Of a stretch of 64,000 nucleotides of DNA, positions 16,234 to 34,407 are shown one piece after another. The DNA comes from Acidimicrobiaceae bacterium (lineage in GTDB: Bacteria > Actinomycetota > Acidimicrobiia > Acidimicrobiales > RAAP-2): contig CANBVQ010000004.1 in the NCBI GenBank assembly GCA_947372925.1, forward strand, positions 1 through 64,000, given 5' to 3'. Under the pieces are notes generated by a model that worked only from the letters and a program-made list of their open reading frames with translations, did no database searches and was not told the DNA's origin. The translations under genes were made by a program, and so were the position numbers. How positions within the stretch are numbered: the stretch's first letter is position 1; every line of letters starts with the position of its first letter.

Positions 16234-16522
16234 TGGTTGCGGGCAGGCTGTGGTTGAAAGTCGATGCCAGTCGCGGGCAAAACGACCCACGTAAGGCGTC
16301 TTGTGGACGCTGAGCATGGCGCGGTTTAGAAGTAAGCCCTGCCTTTGTGTCATCAAATGGGTGGCGTGAAGTGTTGGTGAAGTGAGTGAATCGGTCCGCG
16401 GAGAGCAGTCTCTGCTGCTTCGGACCCACTCGGACACCACTGCAGGCGAGTGTGGGGTCAAAGACCAGGTCAGCTGCCCGCAACCAATACGCCATTTGAG
16501 GGCAGGTAGGGTTACAGGGACT
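16234..16522 (+). ncRNA. Candidate large structured ncRNA / cis-regulatory leader of secA
   Basis: Closing helix TGGTTGCGGGCAG (16234-16246) with CTGCCCGCAACCA (16474-16486); internal hairpins 16296-16310, 16393-16426, 16427-16452. Confidence 0.6.
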
Positions 16523-24409: not shown

Positions 24410-25810
24410 GTGACTACTGAGACCCTTTTGGAACAGAGCATTGTTGAGGGCGTTCTCGCCACGGCCATGGCTCGAGGCGGTGAATTCGCAGAGATCTTCG
24501 TGGAGGATCGCAGTACTTCCTCGGCCACCTTGGACCAGCGTCGGGTGGAAGAACTCACCTCGGGTCGTGAGCGCGGAGCGGGTATCCGCGTCGTCGTGGG
24601 CGACACCACGGGATTTGCCCATACGGCCGACCTGTCACCCGCCAGTCTTCAGCGAGCTGCCGAGGCGGCGGCCTCAGTGGCGCGTTCCGGTGGTGGTGGG
24701 ACCGTCACCGTCGCCCTCGAGCGTCACCGCGGGCACAGCACGATCGCCCAGGAGCTCCCGTCTTCCGTTGACAAAAAGCGGAAGATTGAGATGTTGCTCC
24801 ACGCCGACGAAGTTGCCCGATCGGTGGGTGACGCTATTTCGCAGGTCCAAGTAGCGCTCGGCGACTCTTCGCGACGCTTCCTCGTGGCCAACTCAGAGGG
24901 AACATTCGCCGGAGATCATCAAGTGCGTACTCGTTTTAATGTTTCGTGCATCGCCGCCGGTGACACTGGCATGCAGACGGGTTATCGCCCGGTGGCTGGT
25001 ACTCGGGGTTTTGAGATGCTCTCGCCGGAGAGGATTGCCGATGCGGCAACTGGGGCCGCGCGACAGGCCATCACCAAACTGCAGTCTCGCCCCGCACCGT
25101 CTGGCGACCTACCGGTGGTGCTGGCTGGTGGATCCGGTGGCATTTTGTTTCACGAAGCCTGCGGCCATGGTCTTGAAGCTGACGCAATTCTGAAGCAGGC
25201 GTCTATTTACGCCGGCAAGGTCGGGGAGCAGGTGGCCAGTGAGCTTGTAACGCTGGTTGATGACGGCACCGTCATGGGGGAGTGGGGCTACCTGGCCATC
25301 GACGACGAGGGTCGTCCGGCGTCGCGCAACGTTTTGATTGAAAACGGCATACTGACTGACTACATGTGGGACTTCCTGCGTGCCCGCAAGGAAGGTCGCA
25401 CATCTTCTGGCAATGGACGCCGGCAGACCTACGCCCACCTCCCGCTGGTGCGAATGACTAACACGTATCTGCTGGAAGGTTCTTCAACGCCCGAAGAAAT
25501 CATTGCCTCTACCCCGTACGGCGTCTACGTGGCGCAGCTCGGTGGCGGTCAGGTAAATACCACTACGGGTGACTTTGTCTTCGGTATGACCGAGGCCTAC
25601 CTCATTGAGAATGGGGAGATCACGACGCCGCTTCGCGAATGCAACTTGATTGGCAATGGTCCCGACGTCCTGAAGCGGGTAGATGCGGTGGCCAATGACT
25701 TCTCGATGACGCCTGGAACCTGCGGGAAAGATGGCCAGCAGGTTCCCGTTGGAACCGGACAGGCCACCATGCGCCTGACTGGCGTCACCATTGGAGGCAC
25801 GGCCGCATGA
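24410..25810 (+). CDS. tldD: TldD family metalloprotease
   Basis: GSGGILFHEACGHGLEADAI (HExxxH), partner pmbA adjacent. Confidence 0.92.
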   Translation: MTTETLLEQSIVEGVLATAMARGGEFAEIFVEDRSTSSATLDQRRVEELTSGRERGAGIRVVVGDTTGFAHTADLSPASLQRAAEAAASVARSGGGGTVTVALERHRGHSTIAQELPSSVDKKRKIEMLLHADEVARSVGDAISQVQVALGDSSRRFLVANSEGTFAGDHQVRTRFNVSCIAAGDTGMQTGYRPVAGTRGFEMLSPERIADAATGAARQAITKLQSRPAPSGDLPVVLAGGSGGILFHEACGHGLEADAILKQASIYAGKVGEQVASELVTLVDDGTVMGEWGYLAIDDEGRPASRNVLIENGILTDYMWDFLRARKEGRTSSGNGRRQTYAHLPLVRMTNTYLLEGSSTPEEIIASTPYGVYVAQLGGGQVNTTTGDFVFGMTEAYLIENGEITTPLRECNLIGNGPDVLKRVDAVANDFSMTPGTCGKDGQQVPVGTGQATMRLTGVTIGGTAA

Positions 25811-27162
25811 GCGACCTTCTCGCCCTCGCACAATCAATCGTTGCACGAGCCTCAGGTTCCGAGCAGATCGAAGTCTTTGTCGCCTCCTCGACGGAGGTTG
25901 ATGTCGAGGCCTACCAGGGGGCCATCGAGAGTCTGACTACTGCATCGTCCGATGGAATCGGCATTCGAGTGTTACGTGATGGCGCCGGCGGCGCCCAGGT
26001 CGGCAGTGCTTGGGCCGGTTCGCTGGATGAAGAGGCAATCAGCGACGCATTGCGTGAGGCTCGCGACAACGTGCAGTTCGCGAGCGAGGATGAGTTCCTC
26101 GCGTTCGCACGACCCGATGGGGTGCTGCCAGTTTCCCTCGAACTCGTTTCGGACGACATCGAACGCGTTTCGCTCGACGAGAAGATCGCGATGGCCATTG
26201 CGCTCGAACAGGCCGTGCGTCACGGTGACCCTCGAATTCGTCAGGTTGACTCGGCCAGCTACTCCGATTATCGAGCCGCGAGCGCCATTGCCTCAACGAC
26301 CGGCATCGCCGCGCGATACGCCCGAACGGGGGCCTACCTCTCGGTGAGTCCAATCGCTAGTGATGGAAAAGACGACCAATCTGGCTGGGGTCTTAGCGCT
26401 GGCCGCGGACCCCGAGATCTCAGTATCGAGCAAGCTGCCGAAGACGCCATCCGTCGAGCGACACGAATGCTGGGCGCCACCAAGCCCAAATCACGTAAAA
26501 CGGTTGCCGTCTTTGACCCCCGGACCGCCGCGTCTCTGATGTCAATCATCGGAGGTTCACTTTCCGGGGAAGCCGTAGTCCGTGGTCGCTCCTTCTTTGC
26601 GGGACGCATGGGTGAAGTGGTCGGTTCTTCCGACATCACCCTTGTTGATGACCCCACCGATGCCCGCCATTTCGCTGCCTCGATTTTTGATGGTGAAGGA
26701 TTGGCGTGTCGTCGTAATACTTTGATCGAAGACGGCGTGCTGAAGGCCTTCGTCTATGACACCGTTTCCGCCAGACGTGCCGGAACGACGTCAACTGGAA
26801 GTGCGCTGCGCGGCGGTATTGGCGGCTCACCCAGTGCCGGTTGTCGAGCGCTCCAGATGACACCGGGCCAGTTGAACCAGGCGGAAATATTTGAAGCCAT
26901 TGGCGACGGCGTTTTTGTGGAATCTCTGTCGGGAGTTCACTCCGGTGTAAACCCGATTTCCGGCGACTTCTCAGTCGGTATCACGGGCCTAGTCATTCGC
27001 GATGGTCAGCTCGCTGAACCAATCCGCGAGGCAACCGTCGCCTCAACGTTGCAGCGAATGCTTCAAGACGTCATCTACGTCGGTAGCGATCAAGAGTGGC
27101 TGCCCGGATCAGCCGCCGGTCAAACTATTGCGATTGACGGAATTTCAGTTTCGGGTTCTTAG
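25807..27162 (+). CDS. pmbA: TldE/PmbA family protein
   Basis: 4-nt overlap with tldD; VAVFDPRTAASLMSIIGGSLSGEAVVRGRSFF. Confidence 0.9.
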   Translation: MSDLLALAQSIVARASGSEQIEVFVASSTEVDVEAYQGAIESLTTASSDGIGIRVLRDGAGGAQVGSAWAGSLDEEAISDALREARDNVQFASEDEFLAFARPDGVLPVSLELVSDDIERVSLDEKIAMAIALEQAVRHGDPRIRQVDSASYSDYRAASAIASTTGIAARYARTGAYLSVSPIASDGKDDQSGWGLSAGRGPRDLSIEQAAEDAIRRATRMLGATKPKSRKTVAVFDPRTAASLMSIIGGSLSGEAVVRGRSFFAGRMGEVVGSSDITLVDDPTDARHFAASIFDGEGLACRRNTLIEDGVLKAFVYDTVSARRAGTTSTGSALRGGIGGSPSAGCRALQMTPGQLNQAEIFEAIGDGVFVESLSGVHSGVNPISGDFSVGITGLVIRDGQLAEPIREATVASTLQRMLQDVIYVGSDQEWLPGSAAGQTIAIDGISVSGS

Positions 27163-28158: not shown

Positions 28159-30132
28159 ATGGCAAGTAAGCAGAAAATCGATAAGAGCGGCTCACGTCAG
28201 CGGAACCTCCTGTCCCTGTTATTGAAGCGAACCACCTCCGGTGATCGACTTGGTTTAACTCTTGAACAGATAGTCGATCAACTGCTTGAAGACCGTGAAG
28301 GATCGGATGGTCGCATCTTTCGAGAATTGGCCTATGGCGGCAAGAGCGTTGAGGCCTATCGGCAGATGTTCCACCGAGATCGGGACGACCTCGCCGACAA
28401 CGGTGTGGAAGTAATCGAAACGTTGGGTCGGTACACCATTGATCCAACGCACGTGTGGGTCAGTGGCCTGCAACTCACGAGTGCTGAGAGCCGGTTGTTG
28501 CTCGAGCTCCGCTGCTCCATAGGTCGTCCCTTTGGACCCAACGGACTACTCCAATCAGCTCCCATGCAGCGAGCCACGGGAAGTCGATTCGGGGCCAAAG
28601 CGGCTGCCTTTGGATTGGCCAAACAGCAGAAGCGTGCAGTGACCTTTGAGTTTGCCAAGCCGGGTCGCTGGCGTCGCAAGGGCGTAGAGACGCGAACATT
28701 CGTCCCGTTACGTTTTGTGGTGTCGGGGCATCGACGCTATGTGGTTGGGTACGACGTGACGAAGGGCGCCATACGTGGCTTCCTCATGGATCGCGTTCTT
28801 TCGGTACCCAAGTTCGCGTCCAAGGAAGTTGAGCAGAAGTTTGAATTAGGAACAGCGCTGGTGGACGAGGCCAAGCAGTGGGTGCCCCAGCAGTACCAGG
28901 ACGCCGTGAAGGTTGACTTCATTACCACTTTGGCCTTTGCAAGTTACATCCGTACGCTGTTTGGTGCCGCCGTCGCCGAGGTCACCGAAACCACCAAGGG
29001 CACCAAAGTCAGCATGGTTTTTGAAAGTGAAGATGGGGCCATTCAATTTTTCGTGACCCATGCTTCGCACGTCCAAAACATCACTACTCGTAAATTTGCG
29101 AGTGCGTTGAAGGCTTGGCTGCTGGGGGTCAATCCCAGCTCGAGCCTCGAAGCGTCCAAACTCAAGCTCTCTACCGACTTTCACCTCTACGACAATGCGC
29201 TGCTTGAGACCCTCTCAATGATTTCAGCCATATTGAATAGCGACGGGCTCTATGCATCCGATCTCGCTGAACGCTTCTCGGTGCCAATCGAATTCGTCAG
29301 GGAAAACGTGACGAAGGCCATCATGGCTCGAGACCCACTTGATGATGCGGCCTATCTGGTTCCTGTGGAGTTTGGTGATCTCGAGGATGAACTAAATCCC
29401 ATGTATGTGCCCGTCATCAATGCGAGCAATGCCTCGTTTGGTGGAGATTCTCCGCTTACCTGGTCCGAAGTACTCGACGTCCAGTTGATGCTGTCGCAGA
29501 TCTTGGCCTTGGGCTTGAATCCCGAGGCTTCGGCTCTCTATGAATCACTACGGACCAAGATTCACAGTGCCACCGACATCGGCGTGACTGTTTATTCACC
29601 AACGACACCATTCGTAGACATCATCGAGCAGGCCATTGGATCACGCATTGTTCACCTCAACTATCAGGCGGAGGGGTCGAGCGAGCCGACTGTTCGACCC
29701 GTGGTGCCAACGGAAATTCAGATGGTTCTCGGTGAGCGCTACGTACGAGGTGTCGACGTCTCGACCGATGAGCCGGTCTATCGGACTTACAACTTGTCAC
29801 GAGTGTGGGGAATCACCCTTGGTGAGGCCTTCTCGCAGAGTATTCCCGGGGACAACGAGGGCCCGTGGCTGGACAAGATGCTCGCAGAGGCATCCAAAGT
29901 CCTTGTGGCCGTCAGCGAGAGGGCTCTACCGATTTGGGAAAATTTGCCTCGTGCGGCCATTGATCCCGAAGTGCTCGAAGGTGTCCACGTCATTGAGGTG
30001 CTGATCGCCAACCAGGGGTTCCTGGACCGGCGCCTGGCGATGTCGGGCCCTTACGCCAGTGTCCTGCGAGACTCCACGCCACGCTCAGGTACTGCCTTCG
30101 CGCAGGACCTCGTGCAGCGACTAAAGCTCTAG
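28159..30132 (+). CDS. Tandem/fused PafB-PafC-like WYL-domain transcriptional regulator
   Basis: N-term HTH-like; two weakly similar halves, each with a FVPLRFVVSGHRRYVVGYD / VRPVVPTEIQMVLGERYVRGVDV WYL-like region; SD GAGGAG before ATG 28159. Confidence 0.7.
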   Translation: MASKQKIDKSGSRQRNLLSLLLKRTTSGDRLGLTLEQIVDQLLEDREGSDGRIFRELAYGGKSVEAYRQMFHRDRDDLADNGVEVIETLGRYTIDPTHVWVSGLQLTSAESRLLLELRCSIGRPFGPNGLLQSAPMQRATGSRFGAKAAAFGLAKQQKRAVTFEFAKPGRWRRKGVETRTFVPLRFVVSGHRRYVVGYDVTKGAIRGFLMDRVLSVPKFASKEVEQKFELGTALVDEAKQWVPQQYQDAVKVDFITTLAFASYIRTLFGAAVAEVTETTKGTKVSMVFESEDGAIQFFVTHASHVQNITTRKFASALKAWLLGVNPSSSLEASKLKLSTDFHLYDNALLETLSMISAILNSDGLYASDLAERFSVPIEFVRENVTKAIMARDPLDDAAYLVPVEFGDLEDELNPMYVPVINASNASFGGDSPLTWSEVLDVQLMLSQILALGLNPEASALYESLRTKIHSATDIGVTVYSPTTPFVDIIEQAIGSRIVHLNYQAEGSSEPTVRPVVPTEIQMVLGERYVRGVDVSTDEPVYRTYNLSRVWGITLGEAFSQSIPGDNEGPWLDKMLAEASKVLVAVSERALPIWENLPRAAIDPEVLEGVHVIEVLIANQGFLDRRLAMSGPYASVLRDSTPRSGTAFAQDLVQRLKL

Positions 30133-30140
30133 GCGACCGT

Positions 30141-30154
30141 TGGGCTTCGGCCCA
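30141..30154 (+). repeat. UUCG-loop hairpin TGGGC-TTCG-GCCCA abutting relaxase start codon
   Basis: Direct reading. Confidence 0.5.
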
Positions 30155-31218
30155 TGATTCGCATACTTCCTCGACGTTCACTGGACGCCTCGTACTACGT
30201 GGGCGATACATCGATGGAACTCGATGGAGTTCGTTCCGGACCACCGGGCTATTGGATCCGCGGCAGCGGCCCTCTGGATAGTTCGGTGCTCCAGCGCACA
30301 TGGCGTAGTTCCCAGCGAGCCAAAATCGTTGGGTACGACCTCGTGGTGGCGGCTCCCCGGACGGTATCCGCCTTGTTGGCACTCGGGGAGGTTGAAGAGC
30401 AACGACAACTGGTCGTCGATCATCGAGCATCGGTCGCCGCGGCGGTTCACTACTTAGAAGACCGGGCACTCGTTGTGAGCACCACGATGGCTGGGGAGAG
30501 CCTCGAACAGCGCGGACGTTGGACCTCGATTGTGGCTTTTACTCACGGTGTGAATCGCATTGGTGAACCCCACCTGCACGATCACGTCTTAGTGGGCGCC
30601 CTGCCTCACCTTCGCGCACGAGCGCTGAATCGTCAAGCACTTTCAGCCCACCTACTCGCGGCTGACGCCATCTATCGTTCGGAGTTTCGCTTCCGAATAA
30701 ACCAGCATGGTGTTCGACGTGCGTGGCGAACTCTCGGCGGCATCGACATGGTGCAAGGAGTCGATGAGGGCCACCGAGCACTCTGGCCTGGGGACAGGAC
30801 ATGGGGCATCCAAAAGGAATCGTGGTCGCGCGCGGGGATTGTCAACAAATGGAAGTCCGACCTGCTCCGTTTCGAGAAGATTCACATGCCGGAGCCACCC
30901 ACTCGAACCGCTTCGATAAACGAACAGATCTTTGGGGCACACTTCGAGGGGGCTATCTCAGTCGCTCGTCGTGATGTAGTCGCCGCCACTGCGAACGGAG
31001 CCTCCTCGGGCCTTCCAGGAGAAAGAGTCCAAACATTTGTCGATACCCACTACCCGGAACTCGCTACGGACCGTGGGCTGACGGAAAGACGAATTGGAGT
31101 AGGGGAAGCCCGTCAGAGTGCCCTAGTGCGAGAACGAGGTCCTCGGCTCCTTGAAATCCAAGATGGGGGCCGATGGCATCAACGTGAACGACCACGTTCA
31201 TTCGAGCGCTCTAGATAG
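30154..31218 (+). CDS. MobF/TrwC-type relaxase, catalytic domain only
   Basis: N-term YY; VGYDLVVAAPRTVSALLAL; EPHLHDHVLVGAL (HxHDH metal motif); no helicase region before stop. Confidence 0.8.
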   Translation: MIRILPRRSLDASYYVGDTSMELDGVRSGPPGYWIRGSGPLDSSVLQRTWRSSQRAKIVGYDLVVAAPRTVSALLALGEVEEQRQLVVDHRASVAAAVHYLEDRALVVSTTMAGESLEQRGRWTSIVAFTHGVNRIGEPHLHDHVLVGALPHLRARALNRQALSAHLLAADAIYRSEFRFRINQHGVRRAWRTLGGIDMVQGVDEGHRALWPGDRTWGIQKESWSRAGIVNKWKSDLLRFEKIHMPEPPTRTASINEQIFGAHFEGAISVARRDVVAATANGASSGLPGERVQTFVDTHYPELATDRGLTERRIGVGEARQSALVRERGPRLLEIQDGGRWHQRERPRSFERSR

Positions 31219-32555
31219 CGCGAAAAACGCGCCTCGCGAAAGTACGGAGTTAGCCGAATCCACTCCATCTCCTTGGTGGGTCCCAGTCCTAGGGCCATCC
31301 CACCTCGACCATGCGCGATGTCGGCAGGCGTGAGTTTCATCTGCTCACGTTCACTGCGAACGCCGCCGTTGACCCGTCCGCGCCGCCCTAAGGAGTGAGA
31401 GATTTGACTTCGTTGGTGGCGACCTCCCAGTGCGCTTAGAAGTTCCAGCGTGGGACGATCTGCGATGCCCGGTAGTACGAGTGATGTGGGGAAGAGCGAA
31501 AGGAACGACTCGCCGCTCACGCCCCAGCGAGCACGGGCTTGACTGAGGTCTTGAAGACACGCCATGGTGATGACCCCCTGACCCCCGCCCTCTGAAACTA
31601 TGGACGGCAGCGTGGGGAGTGGTGCCACATTGGCCAGCTCATCGAGAGCCAGGGTGAGTCGAGCACCTTTGTGAAAATCCTGATACGTCCGGTGCACTAC
31701 TTCTTCAATTAATCCCACGACCAATGGGGTCATGATGTTCTGGTGGCGGCTCGGAGCAACGATGTGGAGTTGCGACCTTGATGCCAGGAATCCCTCAACA
31801 TCAAGTTCTGGGTATCTCGCGGTTCGTTGAGCGGCGTCGGTCCGGAACCCATCGAGAAGACCCGAAGCAGTTGACCAGATTCCGGAGCGCTCCCGATCAT
31901 CAGTGGCCATGATCCCCTCCAGTAGGGCAATCGACTGATGATCATCGCTGTAGTGGGCTCGGAGAACTTCTAATCCCTCAGCACCATCACGACGGTCTAT
32001 CGAGCGCGAGAATTTCTTTAAAGACATTCCCCTGAGAGCGGCAGCGTGCATCAACGGTGCAACAAGAGCGCTAGCTCGCTCGGACCAATGGTCACGATTG
32101 AGGGCACCATGAACTGTCTGGCGAGCGTTGACGAGACTTCGAGCGGTGAGCAGGGCCCCGTCCCAGGTGCGCGCCAGTCGAATGGGGGAAAAACTTAATG
32201 CCGTGGTGCCTCGTGGTATTTCGACAGTGCCGCTCGGATCAAAAATGAGTTGCGGAACATCGCGCCGTGATGTCGAGAGAAGTCTGGCCACATCATCCTT
32301 TGTTGACGTGGTGATAGCTGCACGCGTTGTCATCAGGAGATTTGGAACTATCAGCGCTGAAGTCTTTCCGCTGCGCGACGGGCCGAGGATGAGCGTCGAG
32401 CGCTCCGCACCGCTGAAGGCATCACCTGAAATTCCTCGCCCGAGATAGTTTCCAAAATCCATTTCATGTTCGTAACGGTCGCATTCGTAAATGCTTGACT
32501 TTTGATCGAAAAAAGAGTCAACTTTTGTTGTCCTTATGAGAACGAGGTTCTGCAT
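31179..32555 (-). CDS. TraG/TraD/VirD4-like coupling ATPase (T4CP), no N-terminal TM segments
   Basis: TLILGPSRSGKTSALIVPNLL (Walker A), RLTLALDELANVAPLPTLPSIVSEGGGQGVITMACLQDLSQARARWG. Confidence 0.85.
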   Translation of the reverse strand: MQNLVLIRTTKVDSFFDQKSSIYECDRYEHEMDFGNYLGRGISGDAFSGAERSTLILGPSRSGKTSALIVPNLLMTTRAAITTSTKDDVARLLSTSRRDVPQLIFDPSGTVEIPRGTTALSFSPIRLARTWDGALLTARSLVNARQTVHGALNRDHWSERASALVAPLMHAAALRGMSLKKFSRSIDRRDGAEGLEVLRAHYSDDHQSIALLEGIMATDDRERSGIWSTASGLLDGFRTDAAQRTARYPELDVEGFLASRSQLHIVAPSRHQNIMTPLVVGLIEEVVHRTYQDFHKGARLTLALDELANVAPLPTLPSIVSEGGGQGVITMACLQDLSQARARWGVSGESFLSLFPTSLVLPGIADRPTLELLSALGGRHQRSQISHSLGRRGRVNGGVRSEREQMKLTPADIAHGRGGMALGLGPTKEMEWIRLTPYFREARFSRYLERSNERGRSR

Positions 32556-32628
32556 TTTCTTGAAGCGCTAATGGCTTCATGGAAATGTTCTTGTTCACAA
32601 TGGACCGCGTACTGCGATTAGTGCGACA

Positions 32629-32642
32629 CTGCCGTGAGGCAG
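32629..32642. repeat. Hairpin CTGCC-GTGA-GGCAG upstream of T4CP / histone-like gene
   Basis: Direct reading. Confidence 0.4.
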
Positions 32643-32743
32643 GAACGTACGTAACCGAGTCCGCGTTTCAACGTGGTAGAGGTGCGCCAAATTGGTGGGT
32701 CTCGATGCCAAGTTGATTTAACGTTTATTCCCAAGGAGGGAAC

Positions 32744-33034
32744 GTGGCTACTGCTACAAAGAAGGCTGCTCCTAAGAAGGCTGTCAAGAAGGCTGTAAAG
32801 AAGGCTGCTCCTAAGAAGGCTGTCAAGAAGGCTGCTCCTAAGAAGGCTGTCAAGAAGGCTGTCAAGAAGGCTGCTCCTAAGAAGGCTGTCAAGAAGGCTG
32901 TCAAGAAGGCTGCTCCTAAGAAGGCCGCTAAGAAGGCTGTCAAGAAGGCTGCTCCTAAGAAGGCCGCTAAGAAGGCTGTCAAGAAGGCTGCTCCTAAGAA
33001 GGCTGTCAAGAAGGCTGCTCCTAAGAAGAAGTAG
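32744..33034 (+). CDS. Histone H1-like Lys/Ala/Pro-rich protein (tandem repeat)
   Basis: MATATKKAAPKKAVKKAVKKAAPKK...; SD AAGGAGG, GTG start; followed by strong terminator. Confidence 0.8.
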   Translation: MATATKKAAPKKAVKKAVKKAAPKKAVKKAAPKKAVKKAVKKAAPKKAVKKAVKKAAPKKAAKKAVKKAAPKKAAKKAVKKAAPKKAVKKAAPKKK

Positions 33035-33060: not shown

Positions 33061-33090
33061 ATGCGGGGACCTTCGGGTCCCCGCATTTTT
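33061..33090 (+). terminator. Rho-independent terminator ATGCGGGGACC-TTCG-GGTCCCCGCAT-TTTT
   Basis: 11-bp perfect stem, UUCG loop, T-run. Confidence 0.9.
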
Positions 33091-33659
33091 CATTTCTCGG
33101 TGGTTGAGAGATCTTCGGGGGAGTCAATATCAAAACGCCACGGAGAGTCTCCGACTACCTGTGGCTCGAAACCGAGACGGCGACTTTCGGCAATATGACT
33201 AAGGGCGGAAGCTTCGCCGTAGTGAAAGACAAAGTCCAATCCAGTCGGCAGTGCCAAAACATTGCTTCCGAGGCCCAGGTGGTCGGTAAAAAGCATGACG
33301 GCTTCACCAAAATCGAACTGACCTAAATCGTGCGGTTGTGCGAGGTCGGCATGAATGATCACGGCGTGAGCAAACTCTTGTCGGGCCGCGCGATACGCCT
33401 CTTGAATTCCGACATTGAGCCCCGGTCGAGTTGGACGAAAAGCGGTGAGGCCATGCTGAGCGGCAAATTCTTCGATTTCGATGTCATCAGTCACTATCCA
33501 CGTCGGGAGCGGTTCGGTCGCCGCGATCACGCCAAGTGCCAGCTGCTCAACGAGCTTCGCGGTGGCCATGTCGCTGAGGTGAGTACGCAAGCGCTGCTTG
33601 GCAGTCGCGAATGACTTAAGCGGTATCAGGGCGATTCGGTCCTGAGCAGAAGTTGTCAT
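33090..33659 (-). CDS. cofC: 2-phospho-L-lactate guanylyltransferase-like (CofC)
   Basis: ALIPLKSFATAKQRL...IVTDD...GLNVGIQEAYRAA...HADLAQ...FDIDSPEDL. Confidence 0.8.
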   Translation of the reverse strand: MTTSAQDRIALIPLKSFATAKQRLRTHLSDMATAKLVEQLALGVIAATEPLPTWIVTDDIEIEEFAAQHGLTAFRPTRPGLNVGIQEAYRAARQEFAHAVIIHADLAQPHDLGQFDFGEAVMLFTDHLGLGSNVLALPTGLDFVFHYGEASALSHIAESRRLGFEPQVVGDSPWRFDIDSPEDLSTTEK

Positions 33660-33750
33660 GACGGAACGTCTTGCCGGGCGATTTGAAGATCAGCTTCGCG
33701 TGGCGATGACATGGCGCCACTCTATTAGTGGTACTTCGTAGGCTGGAGAA

Positions 33751-34407
33751 ATGGTCCGCATGCATCCGTCGTTGGACTTCGAGTCCCCTTTTCTGCATGA
33801 CGCAAAGCTCGTGGTTGGTATTGACGAGGTTGGGCGAGGTGCGTATGCCGGTCCCGTAACGGTTGGCGCCGTTGGAATTCAGAGCGCAAAGGAAATCCCG
33901 AATGGCCTTCAGGACTCCAAACTCTTAACGGCACGAGCTCGCGAAGCACTAGTCGAGCCCATCCGTGCCTGGGCCGATGTGTGGGGTATTGGTTCAGCGA
34001 CTGCCGAGGAAATTGACATGTGGGGTATTCGTATTGCGCTCGCCGTGGCGGCCGATCGCGCCCTCGCCGCGCTGAACGTACCCGTCGACCAACTGCTCAT
34101 CGACGGACCATCCAATCTGCTCCGGTGCCCTTTGGGCGTGGCACTCGGAGTCGCTCAGCCACCGGTAATCCGCTTTGCTGCGACTCCGGCACAGATGATT
34201 GTCAAGGGGGACCAGAAGTCGGCAACGATCGGCGCGGCGGCCGTTCTTGCCAAAGTCTCCCGCGACGCCTATATGACTGAACTGAGCAACGAACATCCCC
34301 AGTACGAATGGGCCGGCAATAAGGGTTATGGAGCACCGGGCCACATTGCGGCCATTGCTGCTTGCGGTCTAACCAGTTACCACCGAAAGTCGTGGAATAT
34401 TTCCTAA
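33751..34407 (+). CDS. rnhB: Ribonuclease HII
   Basis: VVGIDEVGRGAYAGPVTVGAV...DSKLLTARARE...KGDQKSATIGAAAVLAKVSRD. Confidence 0.93.
   Translation: MVRMHPSLDFESPFLHDAKLVVGIDEVGRGAYAGPVTVGAVGIQSAKEIPNGLQDSKLLTARAREALVEPIRAWADVWGIGSATAEEIDMWGIRIALAVAADRALAALNVPVDQLLIDGPSNLLRCPLGVALGVAQPPVIRFAATPAQMIVKGDQKSATIGAAAVLAKVSRDAYMTELSNEHPQYEWAGNKGYGAPGHIAAIAACGLTSYHRKSWNIS

Follow-up and report, generated by a model that had tools for sequence, protein, structure and literature searches.

Conjugation machines are regarded as a property of plasmids and of integrative and conjugative elements (ICEs). A chromosomal type IV secretion system (T4SS) with a relaxase is encoded by the gonococcal genetic island, which secretes DNA and is an island of some strains only. 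Chromosomal, domesticated homologues of VirB2, VirB6 and VirB4 without an element of their own were described as the archaeal Ced and Ted systems, and at the time of that report domestication of conjugation machinery was known from archaea only (PMC9905601). For Patescibacteria, a clade-wide chromosomal T4SS of the monoderm type was reported, whose coupling protein is often encoded away from virB4 and which in most cases comes without a relaxase (PMC12102498). Here, a stretch of 64,000 nucleotides (the window) from contig CANBVQ010000004.1 of an Acidimicrobiaceae bacterium (genome of 1.49 Mb in 101 contigs, 96% complete) was analysed for a locus of three intact genes, in which a fused PafB-PafC-like regulator with tandem WYL domains is followed by a short relaxase of the MobF type and by a convergent, soluble type IV coupling protein (T4CP). 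The first-pass annotation of this locus had been made from the letters alone, and the positions and lengths of its open reading frames (ORFs), the motifs named and the antisense overlap between the 3' ends of relaxase and T4CP genes were all found as claimed (Table 1).

When likened to Ced and Ted by description, not by sequence, the clade described here likewise keeps on its chromosome VirB2, VirB6 and VirB4 homologues that are not part of an element; Ced is induced by DNA damage, and a regulator of the DNA-damage type sits in the locus. However, Ced and Ted are archaeal and no relaxase is known in archaea, whereas the bacterium described here has retained a MobF relaxase that is intact, along with a T4CP and another VirD4-like ATPase, which points to export. 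The clade-wide, monoderm-type set with a T4CP away from virB4 is shared with Patescibacteria, but the relaxase which most of those lack is present here and invariant. The gonococcal island likewise combines a chromosomal T4SS with a relaxase, whereas the system here is clade-wide and split over two loci. No published description of it was found in the literature that could be searched.

It is suggested that the locus forms one half of a captured and domesticated conjugation machine, which probably moves chromosomal DNA between cells, whereby the transfer, its substrate, the physical coupling of the two loci and the control by DNA damage are what we infer. As such, a bacterial clade would be seen to keep, under purifying selection, a conjugation set that comprises the relaxase missing from archaea; living relatives would document how the helicase was lost step by step, and the usual channel for DNA uptake is gone. 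This makes gene exchange in small-genome bacteria, and the turning of mobile-element machinery into a host trait, testable.

Relaxase and coupling ATPase of the locus

The relaxase consists of the trans-esterase domain without a helicase domain, as the first-pass annotation had put it; its Pfam TrwC match lies above the cut-off, and its NCBIfam MobF match (1e-19, 71 bits) below the cut-off of 100. The AlphaFold model of the protein (predicted local distance difference test score, pLDDT, 84) has the TraI, TrwC and pCU1 relaxases as best PDB matches, and the 27 fold matches at E<=0.001 are MobF relaxases without exception. With TrwC, TraI and pCU1 TraI it shares the HUH trans-esterase fold, the GYD..APR motif, the metal histidines of the FTH and LHDH motifs and the N-terminal Tyr; unlike these, it is chromosomal, has 354 amino acids (aa), lacks the helicase and possesses one conserved Tyr where they have two or more. 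H131, H142 and H144, the three-His metal site, are invariant in 76/76 relaxase sequences, as is H140, and the catalytic Y14 is kept in 75 of them, the exception (L061) being a damaged N-terminus with undetermined residues. The N-terminal tandem Tyr, which had been put forward as a feature of the protein, is not one of the family, as Y15 is kept in 5/76 sequences and is mostly Phe or Leu, and in the alignment of relatives the N-terminal region holds no second conserved Tyr, hence no second pair of the TrwC type (Y18/Y26). The conservation of Y14, together with the usual Phe or Leu at the following position, assigns the protein to a single-Tyr MobF family.

The median relaxase length among relatives is 357 aa, while in sister families relaxases of 650-940 aa occur, some with a weak remnant of an AAA_30 helicase and others with an unrecognisable C-terminus. 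Adjacency of WYL gene and relaxase recurs in several families, and in one locus (L119) a 939-aa relaxase overlaps the convergent T4CP by 37 bp. The longer relaxases with degenerate AAA_30 and the overlap in L119 suggest that the helicase was lost stepwise on the way to the short relaxase.

For the T4CP model (pLDDT 76), matches to Cag-beta and TrwB were obtained, and Walker A and B are invariant across relatives. The RecA-like fold, both Walker motifs and the TraG-D_C region are common to TrwB, VirD4, Cag-beta and the protein described here, which differs from them in being unlinked from a T4SS and in lacking the N-terminal membrane segment; in accordance with the first-pass annotation, no hydrophobic transmembrane (TM) segment was found in the window protein. 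The translation start is probably Met32 (32462), giving 427 aa, since a conserved promoter-like element and RNA leader start at 32494. The 3' overlap of relaxase and T4CP measures 37-70 bp in 50/55 measurable relatives and codes on both strands for Arg/Ser/Glu-rich tails, RSRERS-like in both proteins and kept in most relatives, which are possibly secretion-signal-like. The T4CP clade was not found in the rest of the phylum sample, where the next best match (225 bits) is a 782-aa frame.

Conservation, synteny and selection

A homologue of the short relaxase was identified in 36/36 genomes of the same genus, with 37-49% identity across the entire protein or the greater part of it, and genus-wide it is a single-copy gene at one site. 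Where contigs were long enough, the gene order dxs-tldD-pmbA-WYL-relaxase><T4CP-cofC-rnhB was found in 70 loci with some local rearrangements, these loci belonging to named public genomes mostly labelled Acidimicrobiaceae, whose isolate names point to peat, mine drainage and freshwater. The flanking genes dxs, tldD, pmbA, cofC and rnhB were identified by Pfam, such that the housekeeping flanks proposed earlier were recovered, and the locus is kept in fixed order across relatives and not confined to a single strain. The gap between WYL gene and relaxase amounts to 20-35 bp in most relatives. Pairwise ratios of nonsynonymous to synonymous substitution (dN/dS) among informative pairs, one near-identical pair with unreliable ratios being left out, are ~0.07-0.2 (relaxase), 0.03-0.1 (T4CP) and 0.04-0.13 (WYL gene), i.e., not near 1 and similar to those of pmbA and cofC.

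As the first-pass annotation had noted, neither an integrase nor a VirB4 gene lies in the window, the profile matches for both being located elsewhere in the genome. A Phage_integrase search of the whole genome yielded two tyrosine-recombinase proteins only, whose frames of 318 and 303 aa are of XerC/XerD size, and no ICE-type integrase, serine recombinases not being searched for. That the locus is the remnant of an ordinary ICE or of a mobilisable element would agree with the mobile-element origin of its components and with related VirB4 genes of mobile-element type in other Acidimicrobiia, some of them multi-copy, but it is contradicted by the single genus-wide copy at one site, the purifying selection, the absence of an integrase beyond the two Xer-size proteins and the vertical co-divergence described below; this explanation was rejected and is held to be extremely unlikely. 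The earlier proposal of a domesticated DNA-processing system is thereby strongly supported, and the conjugation genes are well supported as domesticated, vertically inherited chromosomal genes. A related idea is a mobilisation service encoded by the host, chiefly for plasmids and integrative and mobilisable elements (IMEs) without machinery of their own, whereby chromosomal DNA would be transferred incidentally. Mobilisable elements are able to make use of a T4CP and T4SS encoded on another replicon; yet a relaxase is encoded within the locus itself, whose site is fixed, and conservation this strong would not be expected for the benefit of parasites, which makes such a service very unlikely.

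A T4SS operon at a second locus

Running a T4CP profile over 296 Acidimicrobiia genomes revealed, in almost all genomes of the family, another VirD4-like gene with a weaker match. In the genome analysed here this gene resides on another contig (C51; L132), inside a T4SS operon composed of a VirB2-like protein, TrbL/VirB6, a SCO6880-family protein, a VirB4 ATPase and the VirD4-like protein, which is of CD1115 type. The VirB2 assignment rests on relatives with DUF6112 and TrbC matches, and the SCO6880-family protein carries a TM segment (VirB3-like), so that a monoderm-type set of VirB4, VirB6, VirB2-like and VirB3/SCO6880-like proteins is present in this one genome. The absence of a T4SS stated in the first-pass annotation hence holds within the window and not genome-wide, and the scan for VirB4 and VirB6 elsewhere in the genome, which it had proposed, recovered both in this operon. 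Searching for VirB4 with PF03135 gave no match in 61 genomes, because VirB4 of Acidimicrobiia is the bare ATPase part, to which this profile is blind and for which profile A3 was needed. The C51 VirB4 has 89% identity to that of the nearest relative genome and 45-57% to those of five further relatives. Contamination was considered for C51 and rejected given the 89%-identical VirB4 in the nearest relative and a composition within the range of the window.

The operon adjoins the genes of a senX3/regX3-like two-component system and, in relatives, a ROK gene. In the genome analysed here, as in some relatives, a cytochrome P450 gene (L132:907-2235, minus strand) separates the VirD4-like gene from ROK; in other relatives it is missing. 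In one family of the order (L141-L143), the operon is followed not by ROK but by flagellar hook-associated and chemotaxis-like genes, named from N-terminal sequence alone.

Two loci, probably one system

Of the genomes with a strong T4CP match, 33/33 (18 of the family and 15 others of the order) also have a strong VirB4 match. The T4CP and VirB4 trees have their main clades in common, with a patristic correlation of r=0.77 over 25 genomes that was reached in 0 of 10,000 permutations; this co-divergence reflects common descent and by itself is no proof of interaction. Related VirB4 genes also occur in some other genomes of the order and class that lack this T4CP; several of these have more than one copy, which fits mobile elements. 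The relaxase of a sister family (L152-L154) adjoins the T4SS operon in divergent orientation. The mini-conjugation module without a T4SS, as which the locus had first been described, therefore does not stand, since a conserved T4SS operon elsewhere in the genome co-occurs and co-evolves with it.

These data also bear on a purely intracellular role, in which relaxase and T4CP would serve repair, replication restart or anti-plasmid defence under WYL control, functionally apart from the T4SS. WYL regulators are reported to govern DNA-damage and defence genes, the T4CP is soluble and its locus is, in this genus, not linked to that of the T4SS, all of which would suit such a role; nevertheless, it is judged unlikely given the co-occurrence and co-divergence of T4CP and VirB4, the adjacency in the sister family, a fixed chromosomal place unlike that of a defence island, and the fact that PADLOC matches neither relaxase nor T4CP. 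PADLOC matches of the VirB4/VirD4-like ATPases to mad8/HerA were rejected as defence genes and read as shared P-loop fold.

The putative regulator of the relaxase operon

The tandem WYL protein is the sole WYL-domain protein of the genome, and across the genus two WYL domains per genome are the rule, and on intact contigs they lie at the locus described here. Another family of the order has adjacent PafB-like and PafC-like ORFs, to which the N- and C-terminal halves of the protein align, and together with the Pfam WYL match this agrees with the PafBC-like regulator proposed earlier; against solved structures, only a weak match to PafC was obtained (E=0.03). With PafBC, the mycobacterial DNA-damage regulator, it shares the tandem WYL architecture and the PafB and PafC halves, but here these are fused in one gene, which is the first of the relaxase operon. 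Control of the operon by DNA damage is plausible, because mycobacterial PafBC is switched on by single-stranded DNA (PMC11804915). The PafBC-type RecA-NDp promoter motif is not enriched in the window (3 matches, 4.7 expected), and no shared motif was found upstream of the WYL gene across the genus, where recurrent 8-mers stem from the coding end of an upstream gene.

Absence of ComEC

ComEC is the channel of natural transformation. The corresponding domain (PF03772) is absent from 16/16 genomes of the genus (G000-G015), whereas ComEC was found in 9/10 sampled genomes of other families of the order, the exception being G044. In a further genome (G073), ~82% of the chromosome holds no real match, one weak match being low-complexity. 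This pattern corresponds to one or two phylogenetic events, and a link to the machine is suggestive only. In G044 (L171, G044:C90), which belongs to another family of the order, a tandem-WYL gene adjoins a relaxase match, and ComEC is absent.

Tentatively, it could be that the clade replaced natural transformation, ComEC being lost, with a two-locus conjugation machine tied to a damage regulator, which would export single-stranded chromosomal DNA to neighbours and so be a bacterial counterpart of Ced with a relaxase of its own. The same absence would make sense of an importer, and hence a domesticated T4SS with another cargo or direction has to be weighed, i.e., DNA uptake as by ComB or archaeal Ced, DNA secretion into the medium as by the gonococcal island, or protein secretion, with the relaxase as helper or as cargo. 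Ced is thought to import DNA (PMC9905601), and the Patescibacteria T4SS to be co-opted for other functions (PMC12102498); such systems are mostly without a relaxase, however, while the active site of the relaxase described here is invariant over deep divergence, and a different cargo or direction is thus considered rather unlikely.

Suggested working of the machine

For the domesticated machine, which would transfer chromosomal DNA, it is suggested that both halves were captured by the chromosome of the clade and kept by vertical descent, with the relaxase/T4CP locus as the DNA-processing half and VirB2 pilin, VirB6, SCO6880/VirB3-like protein, VirB4 and VirD4-like ATPase, encoded at a second fixed chromosomal locus, as the channel half. 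The fused PafB-PafC-like WYL protein would control the relaxase operon. The relaxase would then nick chromosomal DNA via its single Tyr and remain on the 5' end, and the strand would be pumped by the soluble T4CP after its recruitment to the VirB4/VirB6 assembly bound to the membrane. Finally, the VirB2/VirB6/VirB4 channel would export the strand to a neighbouring cell or into the medium, where recombination may follow. Several points speak against this working: in this genus the relaxase/T4CP locus is not linked to the T4SS operon, the genome encodes two VirD4-like ATPases, docking to the channel is assumed for a T4CP without a membrane anchor, neither VirB8 nor a VirB1-like cell-wall hydrolase turned up, no specific search being made, and ComEC may have been lost just once, without any connection to the machine.

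Neighbouring features

The leader upstream of the H1-like gene has no Rfam match, and 20/32 of its predicted pairs show compensatory changes among 48 relatives; it is a candidate for a new structured RNA, which probably neighbours the machine without being part of it. This conserved block was also considered as origin of transfer (oriT) and rejected in favour of an RNA leader, given that the changes keep the pairs, including G-U pairs on the plus strand.

Table 1. Features of the locus, its surroundings and the second locus (window coordinates unless preceded by L132)
Feature	Position	Strand	Description and evidence
Tandem-WYL regulator	28159..30132	+	657 aa, fused PafB-PafC-like; Pfam WYL 3e-14
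Short MobF (TrwC-type) relaxase	30154..31218	+	354 aa, trans-esterase domain alone; Pfam TrwC 2e-22
Soluble VirD4/TrwB-type coupling ATPase (T4CP)	31179..32555	-	458 aa as annotated; TraG-D_C 5e-16, T4SS-DNA_transf 8e-15
Antisense overlap of relaxase and T4CP 3' ends	31179..31218	.	40 bp; conserved
tldD and pmbA, fixed upstream flank	24410..27162	+	Pfam; synteny in relatives
cofC (-) and rnhB (+), fixed downstream flank	33090..34407	.	Pfam; synteny in relatives
Lysine-rich H1-like gene (AAPKKAVKKA repeats), neighbour	32744..33034	+	From sequence; without Pfam match
Promoter-like element and candidate structured leader	32494..32748	+	TTGAC(A/T); ~240 nt, upstream of H1-like gene; 48 relatives
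VirB2-like two-TM protein	L132:6609-6929		Relatives match DUF6112 and, weakly, TrbC/VirB2

Elsewhere in the window, a raiA RNA (RF03072) was identified at 16238-16482 on the plus strand with 151.5 bits.

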